The notes under the pieces were generated by a model. That model ran no database searches, was not told the DNA's origin, and saw only the letters and a list, made by a program, of their open reading frames with translations. A stretch of DNA of 64,000 nt from Candidatus Sulfurimonas marisnigri (GTDB taxonomy: Bacteria > Campylobacterota > Campylobacteria > Campylobacterales > Sulfurimonadaceae): contig NZ_CP054493.1 in NCBI RefSeq assembly GCF_015265475.1, positions 1,798,001 through 1,862,000 on the forward strand. Direction: 5' to 3'. The position numbers and the translations under genes were made by a program. Shown one piece after another: positions 14,401-24,303 of the stretch (position 1 is its first letter; the number at the start of each line of letters is the position of its first letter).

Positions 14401-14685
14401 ATTTTAGAAGAGGCTGGTATACCATGTGAAGTTGTTCTTAAAATATCTGAAGGTCGTCCAAACATTGAAGATAGTATGAAAAATGATTCCATCCATATGG
14501 CTATCAATACTTCAGACAACAACACTTCTAAAAAAGATGCAGTGGTTATCCGTCAAGAGGTACTTAAAAGAAATATCCCGTATTTCACAACCTTAAGTGC
14601 TGCAAGAGCATTAATTCTAGCACTAGATGAGATGAAAGACGACTCATGGTCAAATGCGAAAGCACTGCAAGATTTTCTAGCTTAG
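11428..14685 (+). CDS. carB: Carbamoyl-phosphate synthase large subunit
   Basis: A 1085-residue enzyme making carbamoyl phosphate from ammonia (delivered by CarA), bicarbonate and two ATP, for pyrimidine and arginine synthesis. The internal duplication is visible: [20 protein letters not shown] near the N-terminus and [20 protein letters not shown] from about residue 564. Each half has an ATP-grasp domain with [19 protein letters not shown] and [19 protein letters not shown]. The C-terminal 145 residues form the allosteric MGS-like domain. The small subunit gene is not in the window. The stop lies just before a terminator-like hairpin. Confidence 0.98.
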
Positions 14686-14687
14686 CA

Positions 14688-15119
14688 GTGTCTGTTATTC
14701 TAACTCAAACCGACACTACTGTCGGTTTTTTATCTCAGGATTCAGACAAACTGTATGAGATAAAATCTCGTCCAACTACAAAGCCTTTTATAATAGTTTA
14801 CAAAGATTTTAAAAACTTTTTACTAAATGCGAACAGAGTACCTCAGAATAAAAAACTTCTAGTTCGACGTTCAAAAAAAACAACCTTTATAATTAAAAAT
14901 AGAGCCTTTAGAGTTGTTGACACTAAATTAAACTCGCAAATATTAAGAGATTTATCTTGGAACTATTCCACATCTGCAAATGAGACTCAAAAAAAATTTG
15001 ATAGAGTTTTTTGTGAATCAAAAGCTGATATAATAATAGAGGATAAGAGTGGTCTAAATGAGAACAGTTCATCATCTCTTGTTAAAATAAATAGATTAAA
15101 AAGGAGAAGATTGAGATGA
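14688..15119 (+). CDS. YrdC/Sua5-family protein, short form
   Basis: A protein of about 143 residues resembling the core of TsaC/YrdC, which makes threonylcarbamoyl-AMP for the t6A tRNA modification. The N-terminal strand VILTQTDTTVGFLSQ matches the family nucleotide-binding strand, and KSRPTTKPF is the K-x-R...KP motif. STSAN near residue 95 is the family SxSAN signature. GTG at 14688, three bases after the carB stop, gives the natural N-terminus; an ATG at 14646 would add 14 residues overlapping carB. The first codons overlap a strong terminator hairpin. It is shorter than typical TsaC, so activity is uncertain. Confidence 0.75.
   Translation: MSVILTQTDTTVGFLSQDSDKLYEIKSRPTTKPFIIVYKDFKNFLLNANRVPQNKKLLVRRSKKTTFIIKNRAFRVVDTKLNSQILRDLSWNYSTSANETQKKFDRVFCESKADIIIEDKSGLNENSSSSLVKINRLKRRRLR
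14708..14731 (+). terminator. Strong intrinsic terminator hairpin after carB, inside the YrdC-like start
   Basis: AACCGAC (14708-14714) and GTCGGTT (14721-14727) form a perfect 7-bp stem with a 6-base loop followed by a T-run, 22 bases after the carB stop. The same bases encode TQTDTTVGF of the downstream protein. It could end carB transcripts or act as an attenuator for the downstream genes. Confidence 0.65.
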
Positions 15120-15559
15120 GCAAAATAGTACAAGCACTATTAACTGGTATTTTTTTTACATTCATTTTAGACTTTTTTATATTTTTAGGTATCAAACTTA
15201 ATTATATAGATTTTTATGAGATTGATTTATATTATAACATTCTGTTTGCCGACAATCAAAATATATATATCTTCTCTTTTTTCAGTATTTTAATTGGTTT
15301 TATAATTACCTATATAAATAAAAATAAAATAACTTTTTCAACTTTAGGACTGTTTTTCTTTTTCGCAATGTTAACACTGATTGAACCAATCGGTTATAGC
15401 CTTGGGGAGAGTATGTTTATGAAAAAGAACTCAACTCTTAAAGATAAAAAATTCACATTTTACGGTGATATTTACTACGAGGGAAGAACTAAAATAACAT
15501 TTTATGACCATGAACTTAAAAAAACAATACTATTAAATAAAAAGGATTTAATTAAATGA
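15116..15559 (+). CDS. Small integral membrane protein of unknown function
   Basis: A 147-residue protein not assigned to a family. Three hydrophobic segments are visible (about residues 5-26, 49-68 and 74-95), followed by a hydrophilic, Lys-rich C-terminal tail (about 100-147) with short strands such as KKFTFYGDIYYEGRTKITFYDH, which may be a small soluble domain. It overlaps the YrdC-like gene by 4 bases (ATGA) and is followed by the UPF0323 lipoprotein, so a membrane or envelope role is likely. Confidence 0.75.
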   Translation: MSKIVQALLTGIFFTFILDFFIFLGIKLNYIDFYEIDLYYNILFADNQNIYIFSFFSILIGFIITYINKNKITFSTLGLFFFFAMLTLIEPIGYSLGESMFMKKNSTLKDKKFTFYGDIYYEGRTKITFYDHELKKTILLNKKDLIK

Positions 15560-15592: not shown

Positions 15593-16171
15593 ATGTCTAG
15601 CAATAAACATATCTCCACTATTTCAAGAGGTGTTGCACTCGGTAGTGCCGGCATAATTATGATGAGTGTTCTAAGTGGCTGTGAAGCTCCTCAGCAGAAG
15701 CAGCAAAACCGCTATTTGGTTATTGAACAACAAACTAGTGGAAAATATATTGTAGTTGAAGAGATGCCTACAGAGGGTCCAAACCGTGCTATTATTCGTG
15801 AGAAAGATGAAAACGGAAATACAGTTGAGCGTTTCATGAATGAAACGGAGATGAAAGCCTTAGCCGAACAAGAGTACAAAAAAGTTCAAGATGGGACATC
15901 AGAAACAGTTTCAAGCAACAGTAGCGGTGCTGGAATGGGCTTGGCAGGAACTATTTTAGCCGTTGCTGCAGGCTCACTCATGGGCAATATGATTGGAAAT
16001 GCTCTTATGAATAACAAGAACTTTTCTAATCGCTCAAGCTCAGTAAATAAAAGTGCTTACAGCCGTTCAGCTGCAGGCAAAGCATCAAGAGCTGGTACAT
16101 CATCTAAAAGAAGTTTTTTTGGCGGTTCTAGCAGAACTTCATCTTATAGCCGTACAAGTTATGGTGGTTAA
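15593..16171 (+). CDS. UPF0323 family lipoprotein with Gly-Gly C-terminus
   Basis: A 192-residue lipoprotein. The signal sequence ends in a lipobox LSGC with the lipidated Cys at about C30. The middle (38-90) is a small alpha/beta segment (RYLVIEQQTSGKYIVVEEMP). A Gly/Ala-rich hydrophobic stretch (about 108-130) could insert in or pack against the membrane. The last 50 residues are almost entirely Ser, Arg, Lys, Ala, Tyr and Gly and end in SYGG. Known family members are Campylobacter proteins of unknown function. The ATP-grasp gene begins 2 bases after the stop, so the two are coupled. Confidence 0.85.
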   Translation: MSSNKHISTISRGVALGSAGIIMMSVLSGCEAPQQKQQNRYLVIEQQTSGKYIVVEEMPTEGPNRAIIREKDENGNTVERFMNETEMKALAEQEYKKVQDGTSETVSSNSSGAGMGLAGTILAVAAGSLMGNMIGNALMNNKNFSNRSSSVNKSAYSRSAAGKASRAGTSSKRSFFGGSSRTSSYSRTSYGG

Positions 16172-16173
16172 TA

Positions 16174-17355
16174 TTGATTAAAATACAAAAGATAAACCCG
16201 CTTGAAGATAAAATATTAGAAGAATTGGGCTTTAGCTGGCACACTGACAAAGATGGTAGCAAATATGTAAATAATGAGCTGGTTAAAATATCTCAAGAGG
16301 AGGCAGAGGCTTATTATGAAGCTGCAAATGAGTTATATGACATGTACGTTGAAGCGGCAGAGCATGTCATAGAGAATAACCTTTTTTTTGAGCTTGGAAT
16401 CCCTTTTAATCTAATAGATGCAATAAAAAAGAGTTGGGAAAATGATGTTCACTGGCATATTTACGGTCGCTTTGATTTAGCCGGTGGCTTGGTGGATGGT
16501 AAACCAATTAAACTCATAGAGTTTAACGCAGATACTCCAACATCACTTTTTGAAACTGCCCTGCTACAATGGGCACTGCTTAAACAAAACAATATGGATG
16601 AAAACAAGCAATTTAACAATGTTTATGATGCAATCAAAGAGAACTTTAAAAGATTAGTTACCCTTTTTGATGATACCAAAAATTTTGATGAGAGATATGA
16701 TGGCTGGAAAATTCTTTTCTCATCAGTAGAAGGTAATGATGAGGAGGAAGCTACAACAAGGCTACTTCAGCAAATTGCAACTGATGCGGGATTCAACACT
16801 GGCTTTGAGTATCTTCATAATGTTAGATTTGATAAAGACGGGATATTCGATGCAGATGACAATCAATACGAGTATTGGTTTAAACTCTACCCTTGGGAAG
16901 ATATAGCGCATGATGAACCGGAGCTTGCAACTATCTTAACAGATATAATGCAAAATCAAAAGGCAATCATATTAAACCCTGCATACACCCTGCTCTTTCA
17001 ATCGAAAGGTATGTTGAAAATATTGTATGACCTATTCCCTGACTCTCCATATCTGTTAAAAACCTCTTTCGAACCGCTAAAAAACACTCTACATGTAGAA
17101 AAAACTGTTTTTGGCAGAGAGGGGGCAAATGTAAAAATAGTCTCTTCTAATGGCAGTGTCATCGAACAAAAAGACGGTCCCTACGACAACTATAAAAAAG
17201 TTTATCAAGAGTATGTTGAGTTTAACAAAGATGAGAATGGAGCAAAATACCAGGCAGGAGTTTTCTTCGCCTATGAGGCTTGTGGATTAAGCTTTAGAAA
17301 AGGCGGTGAGATTATGGATAATATGAGTAAATTTGTGGGGCATATTATAGTTTAA
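16174..17355 (+). CDS. ATP-grasp ligase of the glutathionylspermidine-synthase family
   Basis: A 393-residue protein like the YgiC/YjfC group: the synthetase half of glutathionylspermidine synthase without the amidase. ATP-grasp family patterns include IEFNADTPTSLFETALLQW (about 119-137) and a C-terminal EGANVKIV...YDNYKKVYQEYVEF segment. The true substrate of these stand-alone enzymes is not established; the family fold joins an acyl-phosphate to an amine. The start is TTG, 2 bases after the lipoprotein stop. In other bacteria such ligases also neighbour a lipoprotein gene, which makes the lipoprotein a candidate substrate. The stop abuts the convergent wzz stop. Confidence 0.85.
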   Translation: MIKIQKINPLEDKILEELGFSWHTDKDGSKYVNNELVKISQEEAEAYYEAANELYDMYVEAAEHVIENNLFFELGIPFNLIDAIKKSWENDVHWHIYGRFDLAGGLVDGKPIKLIEFNADTPTSLFETALLQWALLKQNNMDENKQFNNVYDAIKENFKRLVTLFDDTKNFDERYDGWKILFSSVEGNDEEEATTRLLQQIATDAGFNTGFEYLHNVRFDKDGIFDADDNQYEYWFKLYPWEDIAHDEPELATILTDIMQNQKAIILNPAYTLLFQSKGMLKILYDLFPDSPYLLKTSFEPLKNTLHVEKTVFGREGANVKIVSSNGSVIEQKDGPYDNYKKVYQEYVEFNKDENGAKYQAGVFFAYEACGLSFRKGGEIMDNMSKFVGHIIV

Positions 17356-17359: not shown

Positions 17360-18336
17360 GCCTCCTTTTCTTCTTCCTTAAAACCTTTAATAAACTCCAT
17401 AAAAAACACTATGAAGATAGATAATATAAGCCCGGTTACAAAAGCAACTACAACAATCAACTTTTTCTTAGGAGCTATTGGATAATCATTTGTCATAATA
17501 TTACCAATAACTTCTGAGTTTTTATAGTTATATGGTTTCATTAAAACTTTTAAAGCGTTTAACTCCTCTTCGTACTTCTCTATCTGAACTACTTCAATGT
17601 TATTTTTTTCATTCTCAAATCCTTCCAAAGAGTCTTTTAGTTTTATCAACATATCTGCTAAATATCTTTGTTCATTAATTTGTATTGTTGCTAATGTAGG
17701 GTTTATTTCCTTAATTTTTTTAAGATTGCTTTGCACATCAAGAAAATTTGTTTCATAGATTGTGATGTCTTTTTTATATCTATTTATTTTATCTAAAAGT
17801 GCTGGAAGTGTTTTGTTTTTTAAAAGAGTTAACTTTCCTTCAATCTGTTGTGCTTGAGCCTCACGGAGATTTTTCACATCATCAAGAATTTTCTTATGGT
17901 TACCTTGAACATAATCAATAACTTTTTTTAATTCTGATGAAGCTACTTTATTTGAACTGCCAACAGCTGAAATTTCCAAGAAATTTTTCTGTTTTTTCAA
18001 TAAATCAATTTTAGCTTCTCTATCTTTATCATTTTTCAGAATATCTATAAATAAGATTTCTAACTCTTTTGAAAGCTCTGAGGCATTTGCGATTACTACT
18101 TTAGCATTAGCATTATCATTAGCATTAGCATTAGCAAGCTTATACTCACCAATCTTGATAATCGCTTTTACTTGATAAGTCTTTGGTGTCATATAGGCAT
18201 AAATAACTGCACCGATTGTAATAAGAGAGGTAATAAGCACAATTTTAACTCTGTTTTTCATAAGAGTTCTTAACAACTCTCTTAAGTCTATCTCATACTC
18301 TTCATATCTTTGTATGTTTTGCTGACTCTCTTGCAT
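17356..18336 (-). CDS. wzz: Polysaccharide chain-length regulator (Wzz family)
   Basis: A 326-residue polysaccharide co-polymerase that sets chain length for Wzy-made polymers. The classic arrangement is present: a membrane segment at about 33-51 (KIVLITSLITIGAVIYAYM), a large helical periplasmic domain with coiled coils, and a second membrane segment at about 291-315 preceded by a Pro-containing APKKK motif. There is no cytoplasmic kinase domain, so this is the O-antigen rather than the capsule-kinase type. A run of Ala-Asn dipeptides near residues 68-79 comes from a hexanucleotide tandem repeat. The first residues are cytoplasmic and acidic. Confidence 0.88.
   Translation of the reverse strand: MQESQQNIQRYEEYEIDLRELLRTLMKNRVKIVLITSLITIGAVIYAYMTPKTYQVKAIIKIGEYKLANANANDNANAKVVIANASELSKELEILFIDILKNDKDREAKIDLLKKQKNFLEISAVGSSNKVASSELKKVIDYVQGNHKKILDDVKNLREAQAQQIEGKLTLLKNKTLPALLDKINRYKKDITIYETNFLDVQSNLKKIKEINPTLATIQINEQRYLADMLIKLKDSLEGFENEKNNIEVVQIEKYEEELNALKVLMKPYNYKNSEVIGNIMTNDYPIAPKKKLIVVVAFVTGLILSIFIVFFMEFIKGFKEEEKEA
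18101..18136 (-). repeat. Hexanucleotide tandem repeat inside wzz
   Basis: Six consecutive TTAGCA units on the plus strand (the third is TTATCA), read on the minus strand as GCTAAT, encode alternating Ala and Asn in the periplasmic part of Wzz. Six is a multiple of three, so copy-number changes would lengthen or shorten the protein without a frameshift. Confidence 0.85.
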
Positions 18337-20659: not shown

Positions 20660-20781
20660 TTGTATTTCCCTATTCTCACATTTTTTCCATATACTTCAGT
20701 GTAGTATTTATACAATATCTCAATCCATGCAAGTTGTTTTTTTAGTAACAATTTATCTAGTGTTAACTTATCTTTCATCAT
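20656..20781 (-). CDS. Small ORF (41 aa) between the MNT gene and pglF
   Basis: ATG at 20781 overlaps the stop of the nucleotidyltransferase gene (ATGA), and its own TGA overlaps the TTG of pglF. The product MMKDKLTLDKLLLKKQLAWI, continuing to KYN, is basic and helical. Minimal nucleotidyltransferases are normally followed by a HEPN-domain partner of 100-140 residues; this position suggests a shortened or degenerate partner, but no HEPN motif (R-x4-6-H) is visible. It could also be a coupling leader. Confidence 0.4.
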   Translation of the reverse strand: MMKDKLTLDKLLLKKQLAWIEILYKYYTEVYGKNVRIGKYN

Positions 20782-21062
20782 AACAATACCGCCTTTTGAA
20801 ATATAAGCTTAGTAAATGGGTTTGTAAGTGTCCCATCGTCAATAACTATGTCCATCTTCTGCTCACCAAACTTTTCAAAAAATGAAAGTCTCAATTTTCG
20901 TAAATCTTTTTTTCTTAACTTATCAGATAAAATTAGTAAATCTATATCTCCGCCCCGCCTTGTGTCATCCACCCTGCTCCCAAACAGATATAACCTTGCA
21001 TCGCTAGATAATTCATAAAGTTTATTTTTCAATAACGTTATCTCTTCTTTTGACAATCTCAT
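20778..21062 (-). CDS. Minimal nucleotidyltransferase (MNT, MntA-like)
   Basis: A 94-residue protein of the DNA polymerase-beta-like superfamily. The active-site pattern is LFGSR (27-30) followed by GGDIDLLI with D39 and D41, and a third Asp at D71 (MDIVID). Such proteins act as antitoxins that AMPylate HEPN ribonuclease toxins. Here the following ORF is only 41 codons, so the toxin seems lost, truncated or replaced. AT-rich dyad DNA and a TATAAT (21108-21113, minus) lie upstream. Confidence 0.82.
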   Translation of the reverse strand: MRLSKEEITLLKNKLYELSSDARLYLFGSRVDDTRRGGDIDLLILSDKLRKKDLRKLRLSFFEKFGEQKMDIVIDDGTLTNPFTKLIFQKAVLL

Positions 21063-21140: not shown

Positions 21141-21566
21141 TTAAATGTATTTTGCGCAAAACTCCTCAGTATTTAGTAACTCTACTTCAGATGAGTAAAA
21201 ATTTTTATCATTTGATATTATAAGCTCACATTCTGATTTTTTAGCCAGTATATACTGAAGAGTATCCTCTAAATCCTTATAGTTTTTATCCTTATTCATC
21301 AATTGACATGCCAGTGATATCTCTTTATTTGAGAACTCTATAACTTTACAAATTTTATTTATTCTTTCAATCCCACTCAAGGCATTTGCTTTATCTTCCT
21401 TTGCCAAGATATAGTAAATAGTTGTTATTAAATCACAGCTAGTGTATATCCCTATTCCATTTTGTGTCAAATACTTCAATATATCCAAGCTTTCCTGATA
21501 TCTTTTTCTATTCCTGTCATTAATATCAATAAAGATATTAGCATCTATAAAAACCTTTTTATACAT
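21141..21566 (-). CDS. PIN-domain toxin, VapC-like
   Basis: A 141-residue PIN-domain ribonuclease. The acidic metal-binding residues are D8 in VFIDANIFID, the cluster D98/E100/D101 in YKDLEDTLQY, and D120 in IISNDKNF. PIN toxins cleave RNA, often tRNA or rRNA, and are held in check by the adjacent antitoxin. It overlaps the antitoxin gene by 8 bases. It lies downstream of the WecA-like gene, within the glycan locus. Confidence 0.88.
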   Translation of the reverse strand: MYKKVFIDANIFIDINDRNRKRYQESLDILKYLTQNGIGIYTSCDLITTIYYILAKEDKANALSGIERINKICKVIEFSNKEISLACQLMNKDKNYKDLEDTLQYILAKKSECELIISNDKNFYSSEVELLNTEEFCAKYI

Positions 21567-21792
21567 TCATATTCGCTTTGATTTCTTGGATTGTCAAATC
21601 TCCATAAAGGCCTGTACCACTTCCAGCAAAAGCATTTAGTGCTTCCAATTTTTCATCAATAGAAATCTCTTGATATCTCTCCTCTATCAAATCTTTAACA
21701 ACCTGTGTCTGAGTAATATTTTCTCTGCTCGCTATTTCTTTTAAATGTTCTACTATTTCATCATCAAGTAAAAAATTTTTTCTTATTGTCAT
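21559..21792 (-). CDS. Ribbon-helix-helix antitoxin partner of the PIN protein
   Basis: A protein of about 77 residues. The N-terminal TIRKNFLLDDEIVEHLKEIA and TQTQVVKDLIEERY form a ribbon-helix-helix DNA-binding unit; the C-terminal tail (SGTGLYGDLTIQEIKANMN) would wrap the toxin. ATG at 21792 is chosen because a GGGG-containing ribosome site lies at a good distance; GTG at 21801 would add three residues. It very probably represses its own operon. Confidence 0.82.
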   Translation of the reverse strand: MTIRKNFLLDDEIVEHLKEIASRENITQTQVVKDLIEERYQEISIDEKLEALNAFAGSGTGLYGDLTIQEIKANMNV

Positions 21793-21847
21793 AATATCCA
21801 CCCCACAATCTAATTATATGTATTATAACATACATATAACTACATAC

Positions 21848-22810: not shown

Positions 22811-23086
22811 TTAATATACCTCCTCATGAGTTCCTATATCGATTGGTATTATCTCATCATCTTCTATAATAAAGTCTATTACTACTCGATATTTCATATT
22901 TATAGACACACTGTGATACTCTTGTAGTCCACCTTTTAATTTATGTAACCTCAAAGATGGATGCCACGGGTCTAGCTCTAGTAATTTTATTGTTTTTGCA
23001 TATCTATCTAGAACTTCAGGATGCTTTTTTATAAACTTTTTTAATTTTTTAAAATACTCATCAGTTCTTACAATCTTATAATTCAT
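22811..23086 (-). CDS. RelE/ParE-superfamily toxin
   Basis: A 91-residue protein with the small alpha/beta RelE fold: two N-terminal helices (EYFKKLKKFIKKHPEVLDRY), the HPSLRLHKLKGGLQEYHSVSI turn, and strands MKYRVVIDFII and IIPIDIGTHEEVY. It resembles YafQ/YoeB-type mRNA interferases. It overlaps the antitoxin gene by 11 bases and its stop is adjacent to the ATG of the WecA-like gene, a direct coupling of a toxin gene to a glycan gene. Confidence 0.87.
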   Translation of the reverse strand: MNYKIVRTDEYFKKLKKFIKKHPEVLDRYAKTIKLLELDPWHPSLRLHKLKGGLQEYHSVSINMKYRVVIDFIIEDDEIIPIDIGTHEEVY

Positions 23087-23330
23087 CCATCAGCTCTTTT
23101 ATATGTTCTGATGCACTCTGAGTTTTATAATTTCCATTTTTGATATCCTGCATAGTTTTCATATATGCTATATCTAGTTCATTTTTTCTAAATTCTTTGT
23201 ATCTCTCTATATCAATTACAACATATCTGTCTTTACCGCGAACATTGATTATCAACTCATCAAACTTATCTAACAAGCTTCCAAATATAGAAACGCCCTT
23301 CGTTTTCACTTCATTTGCACTTATTACCAT
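23076..23330 (-). CDS. Phd/YefM-like antitoxin
   Basis: An 84-residue protein with the Phd/YefM layout: a strand-rich N-terminus (MVISANEVKTKGVSIFGSLL), RGKDRYVVIDIERYKEF, and a charged, probably disordered C-terminal toxin-binding tail. It precedes the RelE-like gene with an 11-base overlap. Upstream lies a short AT-rich gap (23331-23373) that may hold the operator. Confidence 0.83.
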   Translation of the reverse strand: MVISANEVKTKGVSIFGSLLDKFDELIINVRGKDRYVVIDIERYKEFRKNELDIAYMKTMQDIKNGNYKTQSASEHIKELMDEL

Positions 23331-23373: not shown

Positions 23374-24303
23374 TTAAGTCACTTCTCCATTTGTCATAAA
23401 CCTAATCCCATCTTCCACCGTATATAAGTTTTTAAATTCTAATATATCTTTTGTAAGTCTGTTATCTACTACTAAGCTCCCATAAAGTCTTTTATGAAAA
23501 GATGGCTTAACAAGTTTCAGCAATGTTTCAAAAAATGGAATTTTTATCAAATACACTTTTTTATCTAACTCTTTAGCAATTAACTCAATCAATTTTGTAG
23601 TACTAATGGCCTCATCATCAGAAGCTAAAAATACACCAGAACCAGTCATTCCATCCACACTCGCCATTCCATTCATACTCGCCATTCCACTCACATCCGT
23701 CATTCCAAACTTGATTTGGAATCTAACAACTGCATCTATCAAATGACAAAGATTTCCAATATAAACCATACTTCGCTTATTATCTATCCCACCAAATGGC
23801 AAAACAGAAACTTTTTGCACTAAACTAACAAGATTTTTAATATTTGCTTTAACACCATAACCATAAACTATAGGTGTTCGTATGATACTTACTTTAAAAC
23901 CATCATCTTCAAGCTTTTGTAGTTCTTGCTCAGCTTTTAGCTTACTCTTTCCATACTCATCTTCAGGAGAACAAATACTGTTTTCGGTATAAGCTATATC
24001 TGTCTCTTCCCCATACACCTTAACTGTACTCATAAATATAAAATGCTTAACTCCACCCTCTTTAGCTTTTTTAGCTAACTCCAAAGTCTGAGTAACATTT
24101 ACTTTTTCATACTCTTCTTTAGTTGCTCCACCCATCTGATGAACCAGAGCAGCAAGATGAATCACAACATCTACATCTTCTACATGTATAGATTTAAAAT
24201 CATCATTTAAAAATGAAAATCTTGCTATTTTATAATTTGCAGCGTATTTATTTACAAAGTAGTTTCCTATAAAACCATTTGAACCTGTTAGCAATAATTT
24301 CAT
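23374..24303 (-). CDS. NDP-sugar 4-reductase/epimerase, WbpV-like, with in-frame repeat insertion
   Basis: A 309-residue extended SDR. The nucleotide-binding loop is TGSNGFIG (6-13) and the active site S92 with Y117-x-x-x-K121 (STVKVYGEE and YGKSK). It is close to enzymes that reduce UDP-4-keto-6-deoxy-GlcNAc to UDP-QuiNAc or FucNAc, matching the nearby dehydratase and WbpL-like transferase. Residues about 195-222 (FQIKFGMTDVSGMASMNGMA and following) interrupt the usual junction between the NAD domain and the substrate domain, and are encoded by a repeat (23645-23724). The frame is intact, so the insertion may be tolerated as a surface loop. Confidence 0.87.
   Translation of the reverse strand: MKLLLTGSNGFIGNYFVNKYAANYKIARFSFLNDDFKSIHVEDVDVVIHLAALVHQMGGATKEEYEKVNVTQTLELAKKAKEGGVKHFIFMSTVKVYGEETDIAYTENSICSPEDEYGKSKLKAEQELQKLEDDGFKVSIIRTPIVYGYGVKANIKNLVSLVQKVSVLPFGGIDNKRSMVYIGNLCHLIDAVVRFQIKFGMTDVSGMASMNGMASVDGMTGSGVFLASDDEAISTTKLIELIAKELDKKVYLIKIPFFETLLKLVKPSFHKRLYGSLVVDNRLTKDILEFKNLYTVEDGIRFMTNGEVT
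23645..23724 (-). repeat. In-frame inserted repeat: three 18-bp units plus a 26-bp dispersed arm
   Basis: On the plus strand, three 18-base units (23645, 23663 and 23681) start GTCATTCC or GCCATTCC and are followed by GTCATTCCAAACTTG and ATTTGGAATCT (23699-23724). The protein shows six-residue periods GMTDVS, GMASMN, GMASVD. The last part is the same sequence as the left arm of the intergenic repeat at 18487-18512, with three differences. Confidence 0.75.

Follow-up and report, generated by a model that had tools for sequence, protein, structure and literature searches.

A conserved C-terminal tail marks lipoproteins paired with YgiC-type ATP-grasp ligases as candidate polyamination substrates

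The ATP-grasp ligases YgiC and YjfC of Escherichia coli are named peptide–spermidine ligases in RefSeq, and a peptide–spermidine ligase activity in vitro is attributed to both (Pederick et al. 2023, Biochemistry 62:899, as cited in PMC12568646, PMC10948618, and PMC12270671). One citing paper speaks of ‘recently characterized bacterial peptidylpolyamine synthetases’ (PMC12568646), and YgiC is given as lacking GspS activity in PMC12506659, which cites Sui et al. 2012. Because of this published activity, ligases of the type cannot be called functionless. The original prediction for the locus described here, which spoke of an orphan ligase in a class of pairs with no known substrate, must therefore be restricted: the enzymes have a published activity, and what stands is that the accessible literature yielded no natural protein substrate. 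Among the matches listed, which leave most subscription papers outside, we recognized no paper naming YgiB or the lipoprotein tail as a substrate; a 2009 amidoligase survey may have predicted the tail as one.

Pairs of a tailed protein and such a ligase are exemplified in E. coli by YgiB–YgiC and YjfM–YjfC, and PMC11237479 describes operons that combine a YgiC-type ligase with a PspA dyad, DUF350, and DUF1190. In eukaryotes, spermidine is joined in an ATP-driven reaction to the C-terminal Gly-Gly carboxylate of SUMO or ubiquitin (PMC12270671). That chemistry resembles the reaction considered below but employs E1 and E2 enzymes and a ubiquitin-like protein, and the likeness implies no shared ancestry.

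We analyzed a 64,000-nucleotide stretch of DNA (the window) from a single-contig genome of 2.49 Mb whose nearest named relatives are Sulfurimonas. As originally predicted, a lipoprotein gene encoding a Gly-Gly end and a ligase gene lie 2 bases apart, which the two ORFs confirm (Table 1): the lipoprotein’s TAA stop (16169–16171) is followed by 2 bases and then by the TTG-start ligase ORF. Each gene was found once in the genome. The lipoprotein tail reads ...SSKRSFFGGSSRTSSYSRTSYGG and ends SYGG; searched against its own genome at E ≤ 1, it matched itself alone.

Table 1. Features of the lipoprotein–ligase pair (positions are those of the window).
Feature	Positions	Strand	Basis or remark
Tail-bearing lipoprotein, putative substrate, 192 aa	15593..16171	+	ORF
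Lipobox LSGC with Cys30	15671..15682	+	Cys30 is the sole invariant column among 26 aligned relatives
Acidic part	15683..15925	+	10 K/R and 15 D/E, counted from Cys30
Gly-zipper hydrophobic segment, uncharged, possible membrane span	15926..16015	+	Residues 112–141, no charged residue
Basic low-complexity tail	16016..16168	+	51 residues, 10 K/R, 0 D/E
Internal motif KRSFFG, a form of [KR]SGFF / RGGFG	16106..16123	+	F175 and F176 nearly invariant
C-terminal Tyr-Gly-Gly, proposed ligation site	16160..16168	+	Conserved tail ends in the order
YgiC/YjfC-type ATP-grasp acid–amine ligase, 393 aa, TTG start	16174..17355	+	PF03738

A Sua5/YrdC-like ORF and a 147-aa ORF lie upstream of the pair (window 14646–15559). 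Since relatives of these ORFs occur in only 18 and 11 of 80 related loci, respectively, we regard them as local synteny outside the module. Elsewhere, the window holds polysaccharide-type genes. Two exopolysaccharide-type ORFs among them carry in-frame tandem repeats – a Wzz-like ORF with six copies of a 6-bp unit encoding NANANDNANA (18101–18136) and an epimerase ORF with 3.4 copies of an 18-bp unit encoding GMASMNGMASVDGM (23647–23707). A nucleotidyltransferase gene (20778–21062) and a PIN domain gene with a small partner (21141–21801) also stand among the polysaccharide-type genes, and YafQ/HigB-like and Phd/YefM-like genes were matched below cut-offs at 22811–23330.

The window ligase belongs to PF03738 (GSP_synth; E = 9.2e-126, 420.4 bits against a gathering cut-off of 29.3). 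Its AF2 model (pLDDT 91.9) has the YgiC/YjfC fold, with YjfC (7uk6, TMq 0.85) and YgiC (7uk8, TMq 0.83) as best PDB matches, and it is 30 and 28% identical to E. coli YgiC and YjfC, respectively. The columns of Gss residues R316, D318, E330, N332, E391, K498, K533, and R598, which we take to be the metal, ATP, and substrate residues of GspS, are invariant in seven aligned sequences that include the window ligase. It shares the synthetase fold (TMq 0.83 to 2io8) and these active-site columns with GspSA but lacks the amidase domain: PF03738 is its sole Pfam match at E ≤ 0.1 over 393 aa, and E. coli Gss has about 220 extra N-terminal residues by comparison. Thr121 and Thr123 stand at two serines of GspSA that are presumably glutathione contacts. 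Second, mostly partial PF03738 matches occur in five genomes (G049, G060, G119, G140, and G167), next to the main copy in the case of G060 and G140, and are possible duplications or decaying copies.

The upstream protein is a predicted bacterial lipoprotein by its lipobox, the Cys after the signal peptide being invariant in 26 of 26 relatives, some of which have atypical lipoboxes such as MQGC. The NF003146 profile (PRK04081 hypothetical protein) matches it over its full length (E = 1.9e-47), with a score of 161.4 bits that falls below the NCBIfam cut-off of 194. A beta-rich domain is predicted at about residues 36–105, with an AF2 block of pLDDT 86–94 over residues 41–100. Foldseek returned no PDB match to the model at E ≤ 0.001 and a VIA structure comparison gave Z of at most 2.5, which does not show a new fold. 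In the hydrophobic segment, the Gly-zipper residues G127 and G131 are nearly invariant among the 26 aligned relatives.

Charge distribution suggests how the protein may be placed in the membrane. The 130 proteins that could be parsed among 141 from the order have median charges of +3 in the N-region, −6 in the acidic part, and +8 in the tail; the window lipoprotein, which is outside the 130, has the same pattern. Judged from sequence, this is the pattern expected of an inside–outside–inside protein. The Campylobacterota form would then have a lipid-anchored Cys, a periplasmic acidic part, a Gly-zipper span, and a basic tail inside, so that the tail probably faces the cytoplasm from the inner membrane, where the enzyme and ATP are also located. 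Partners that lack a second hydrophobic span, such as the short L255, remain a difficulty for this topology; modification of their tails would have to precede export. A few Pseudomonadota partners (L255 and L258) also have no lipobox-type Cys.

CheV, which enters the argument through Campylobacter, is a cytoplasmic protein. Cj0372 of Campylobacter jejuni is given as pfam03738 in PMC2846917, and a C. jejuni 414 locus (L066) has the gene order of the window pair. Cj0371–Cj0372 is likely orthologous to the window pair, Cj0371 being assigned by gene order and numbering only. Cj0371 is predicted to have one signal peptide and one transmembrane segment (PMC4944492) and is described as a membrane protein to which the CheV receiver domain binds in pull-down experiments (PMC6104132, in which Cj0372 has 0 occurrences). 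The Helicobacter mustelae homologue of the ligase is listed among the 50 most abundant proteins (PMC2846917).

To establish how tightly the two genes are coupled, we sampled 199 genomes of the order, detecting the ligase by PF03738 and the lipoprotein by a 26-sequence profile. The ligase is present in 143 genomes and the lipoprotein in 141, with both in 141, the lipoprotein alone in 0, and neither in 56; the two ligase-only genomes (G001 and G178) hold fragments at contig starts. Most sequences behind the lipoprotein profile were neighbours of a ligase, and their tails were part of it, so these counts could miss diverged unpaired relatives. In 129 genomes the pair is on one strand and less than 400 bp apart. 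In the other 12 it is not adjacent: the spacing is 458 bp in G098, about 7 kb in G059, and about 16 kb on opposite strands in G165, four genomes (G039, G045, G072, and G085) have both genes on one contig at distances from roughly 190 kb to over 1 Mb, and the two genes lie on different contigs in five (G053, G066, G079, G092, and G155). The coupling that the original prediction put forward is therefore near perfect in the order, non-adjacent pairs included (141 of 141 lipoproteins with a ligase).

Across 80 related loci, the ligase cluster is found in 76 and the lipoprotein cluster in 64, and among the 14 largest neighbour clusters, which were not named by family search, no third gene occurs in more than 20. 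The next clusters by size, with 20 (presumably CarB-like), 18 (Sua5-like), and 11 loci (the 147-aa ORF), look like local synteny. E. coli yjfMC, in contrast, is located behind yjfIJKL. The polyamine gene nspC, which belongs to a triamine (spermidine) pathway, is present in the source genome and in 190 of the 199 genomes of the order, and is thus too common to serve as a test of the amine.

The tail of the lipoprotein is conserved across the order, usually ending in [F/Y]-G-[G/S/A]. The C-termini of the 141 proteins are GG (106), GS (25), IS (3), GA (2), NS (2), NA (1), SG (1), and FF (1), so that 8 differ from G[GSA]; the IS, NS, and NA ends come from one genus of family f14, and the FF-ending protein (G070) looks frameshifted downstream of the motif. 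In a set of 137 tails, which omits G070 and, by filter, the GG-enders G079, G092, and G196, 115 have Phe or Tyr at −3, 130 have Gly at −2, and all 137 have Gly, Ser, or Ala at −1. GG was observed in 103 of these tails against 2.4 expected from each tail’s own dipeptides. Tallied by genus, related genomes not being independent, GG-enders occur in 40 of 47.

With the last eight residues excluded, the internal motif is present in its broad form in 138 of 139 proteins (the 141 minus G070 and G196) and in its strict form, [KR][SGT][GF][FY][FYGM], in 105. No Asp or Glu occurs within the last 30 residues in 135 of the 139. The last internal motif starts anywhere from 9 to 42 residues before the tail end; the end is thus conserved although its spacing to the motif is not. 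All 12 non-adjacent lipoproteins end in GG or GS.

These features are commoner than chance would give. Among the 56 ORFs of at least 150 aa on both strands of the window, the lipoprotein alone ends in GG. In the 80 related loci, 535 other neighbour ORFs include 2 that end in GG, 7 that end in G[GSA], 1 with the strict motif, and 0 with both motif and G[GSA] end, compared with 49, 57, 48, and 43, respectively, of the 64 lipoproteins in the BLAST cluster. The tail is therefore kept among paired lipoproteins, where a lack of conservation would have counted against the original prediction. Its more specific proposal, that the terminal Gly-Gly is an attractive acceptor, is partly supported: GG is found in 106 of 141 proteins but is not universal, and the internal GF motif with a small last residue is more widespread. 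Across all sets, paired proteins also end in GS, GA, IS, NS, SS, AS, RS, GE, and HA.

Helicobacter-type lipoproteins (L092, L094, G086, G099, G144, G166, G177, and G188) end in IS, NS, NA, or VS rather than GG, and some have longer tails with more than one SGFF unit. The L092 ligase retains the active-site columns.

Comparable tails also occur outside the order. In E. coli, the C-terminus is SRSMGG in YgiB and GHWGG in YjfM, with internal RGGFG and RGGYG, respectively; the two E. coli pairs resemble the window pair in ligase fold, active-site residues, and gene adjacency, and their tailed proteins resemble the window lipoprotein in an R-x-G-x-G-motif tail and a terminal GG. Unlike YgiB and YjfM, the window lipoprotein is not recognized as DUF1190: PF06693 gave no match to it at E ≤ 0.1 and matched 2 of its 26 relatives (best E 0.015), and it has Cys30 only, lacking the four cysteines after the lipobox that are invariant in 10 DUF1190 proteins. 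What it has in common with DUF1190 proteins is a basic tail, a [RK][GS]GF-type motif, a small C-terminal residue, and an adjoining ligase. Profile comparison gave no support for a common origin, only 24 columns in the hydrophobic segment being aligned.

Among 150 Pseudomonadota genomes, PF03738 is present in 29, of which 24 have the stand-alone form (L240–L263) and 5 only the long GspSA-like form. We found a GF-motif partner for 23 of the 24 stand-alone ligases; in one case the partner (L287) and the ligase (L248) are about 3 kb apart. These partners end in GG (17), GS (2), SS (2), AS (1), and GE (1). A PF06693 match is present in the genomes of thirteen of them. The remaining ten comprise L263, which is of Campylobacterota type, and nine others, several of which (L242, L250, L255, and L260) consist of little beyond a membrane anchor and a tail. 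In 10 DUF1190 partners the domain is different, R-x-G-x-G and the Gly at −2 are kept, and 9 end in GG. Bacteroidota contributed 20 loci with a full-length stand-alone ligase and 18 readable partners, all ending in Gly or Ser (GG 8, SS 7, GS 1, HS 1, RS 1); L101 and L103 had no readable partner. Among the Pseudomonadota, no partner was recognized in the flanks of L243. Pairing and tail conservation both hold across three phyla. Since the globular domains of the partners are not recognizably shared, it is the tail, more than the globular part, that is common to them.

A DUF1190 protein without a ligase provided a natural control. PF06693 occurs in 14 of the 150 Pseudomonadota genomes, 13 of them with a ligase; the exception is G297. 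In 246 genomes of its order, PF06693 is found in 8, PF03738 in 16 (14 stand-alone), and both in 7. The orphan protein (L296), whose genome has no PF03738 match, carries a degenerate motif, KKGGVGG, and a diverged end (APDAVVAAPSEGS, APSEGS). Its paired relatives L301, L302, and L303 have RGGFG, RGGFG, and SAGFG, respectively, and end in GG. The stretch between motif and end is still alignable between L296 and these relatives, which too hold Asp or Glu there. This control is a single case, and L296 still ends in Gly-Ser. Five of the 12 partners from this order end in RS (3), GE (1), or HA (1), which shows that some pairs do without a terminal Gly. For L314 and L317, also of this order, the flanks held no recognizable partner. 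Six DUF1190 partners that lie on the opposite strand from the ligase, up to several kb off, end in GG.

We propose, at a probability of roughly one half, that the two genes form a protein-modification module in which the YgiC-type ligase amidates the C-terminal carboxylate of the tail with a polyamine. The [KR][SG]GF-type motif would let the ligase bind the basic tail. Using ATP, the enzyme would then activate the C-terminal carboxylate as an acyl phosphate and couple it through an amide bond with a polyamine, for which spermidine or a related triamine is the likeliest candidate. Capping would turn a negative C-terminus into a polycationic tip on an already basic tail and might thereby affect a membrane or signalling function. 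In the window protein the C-terminus is the tail’s only carboxylate; given this, a carboxylate-activating enzyme class, and the naming of the E. coli ligases, C-terminal polyamination is the simplest interpretation. Outside the order the case is weaker: 4 of the 10 DUF1190 tails, YgiB included, hold Asp or Glu in their last 30 residues, so the sole-carboxylate argument fails there. Graspetides, a class of ATP-grasp RiPPs, use Asp or Glu side chains of the core for macrocyclization, and we rejected a graspetide-like cyclization of the window protein because its tail has 0 D/E.

The tail could instead dock or regulate the enzyme, the ligase making a free peptidyl- or acyl-polyamine that the lipoprotein anchors or senses at the membrane. 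That YgiC and YjfC are cited as peptide–spermidine ligases would suit such a role, as would an internal motif more widespread than the terminal Gly, but docking alone explains neither the [FY]G[GSA] end conserved in the order 9–42 residues from the last motif nor the small last residue in other partner sets, and we consider it rather unlikely. A tail kept for a function of its own – attachment to anionic lipids, to nucleic acid, or to a protein such as CheV – with the ligase coupled through another step appears less probable still. The tail’s basic, Ser/Gly/Arg-rich, and in the order mostly acid-free composition fits this explanation, and in pull-down assays the CheV receiver domain was bound by Cj0371, the likely C. 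jejuni orthologue of the lipoprotein (PMC6104132); the almost absolute co-occurrence with the ligase in the order argues against it, as does the single orphan DUF1190 protein, in which motif and end have decayed while the middle stretch remains alignable.

Two further explanations carry little weight. Many Campylobacterota tails contain several lysines, which might supply the amine to which the ligase attaches an acid; Lys is absent from the distal tails of L242, L260, and L307, leading us to reject this model for the most part, and it leaves the conserved C-terminal end unexplained, making it very improbable. Least credible is that GGN-GGN codons are kept as the ribosome-binding site of the ligase gene and not for the protein. 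In its favour, the genes abut, an SD-like word occurs within the final two codons and the stop in 52 of the 128 adjacent pairs, and at position −2 the GG-enders use GGA more than any other codon (55 of 105). Yet all 12 non-adjacent lipoproteins end in GG or GS with varied codons, and the six opposite-strand DUF1190 partners in the order of G297 still end in GG. Translation signals were thus rejected as the sole cause, though they may add to codon choice.

These results support C-terminal polyamination of the tail as a prediction. The activity class of the enzyme was already known; the co-occurrence counts, the tail code, its recurrence across phyla, and the single orphan DUF1190 case are new. 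More tentatively, and with odds somewhat below even, the pairs may represent a multi-phylum C-terminal polyamination system, in which the carrier is anchored in the membrane, its globular part is exchangeable, and a tail code ([RK][SG]GF ... small C-terminal residue) is read by the YgiC-type ligase – a bacterial counterpart of SUMO–spermidine conjugation tied to envelope or chemotaxis control. The tailed lipoproteins provide a candidate substrate for a widespread ligase family with two paralogues in E. coli K-12. If the assignment is true, bacteria would modify a protein by capping its C-terminus with a polyamine, and polyamines would be tied to PspA-linked envelope systems and, in Campylobacter, to chemotaxis.
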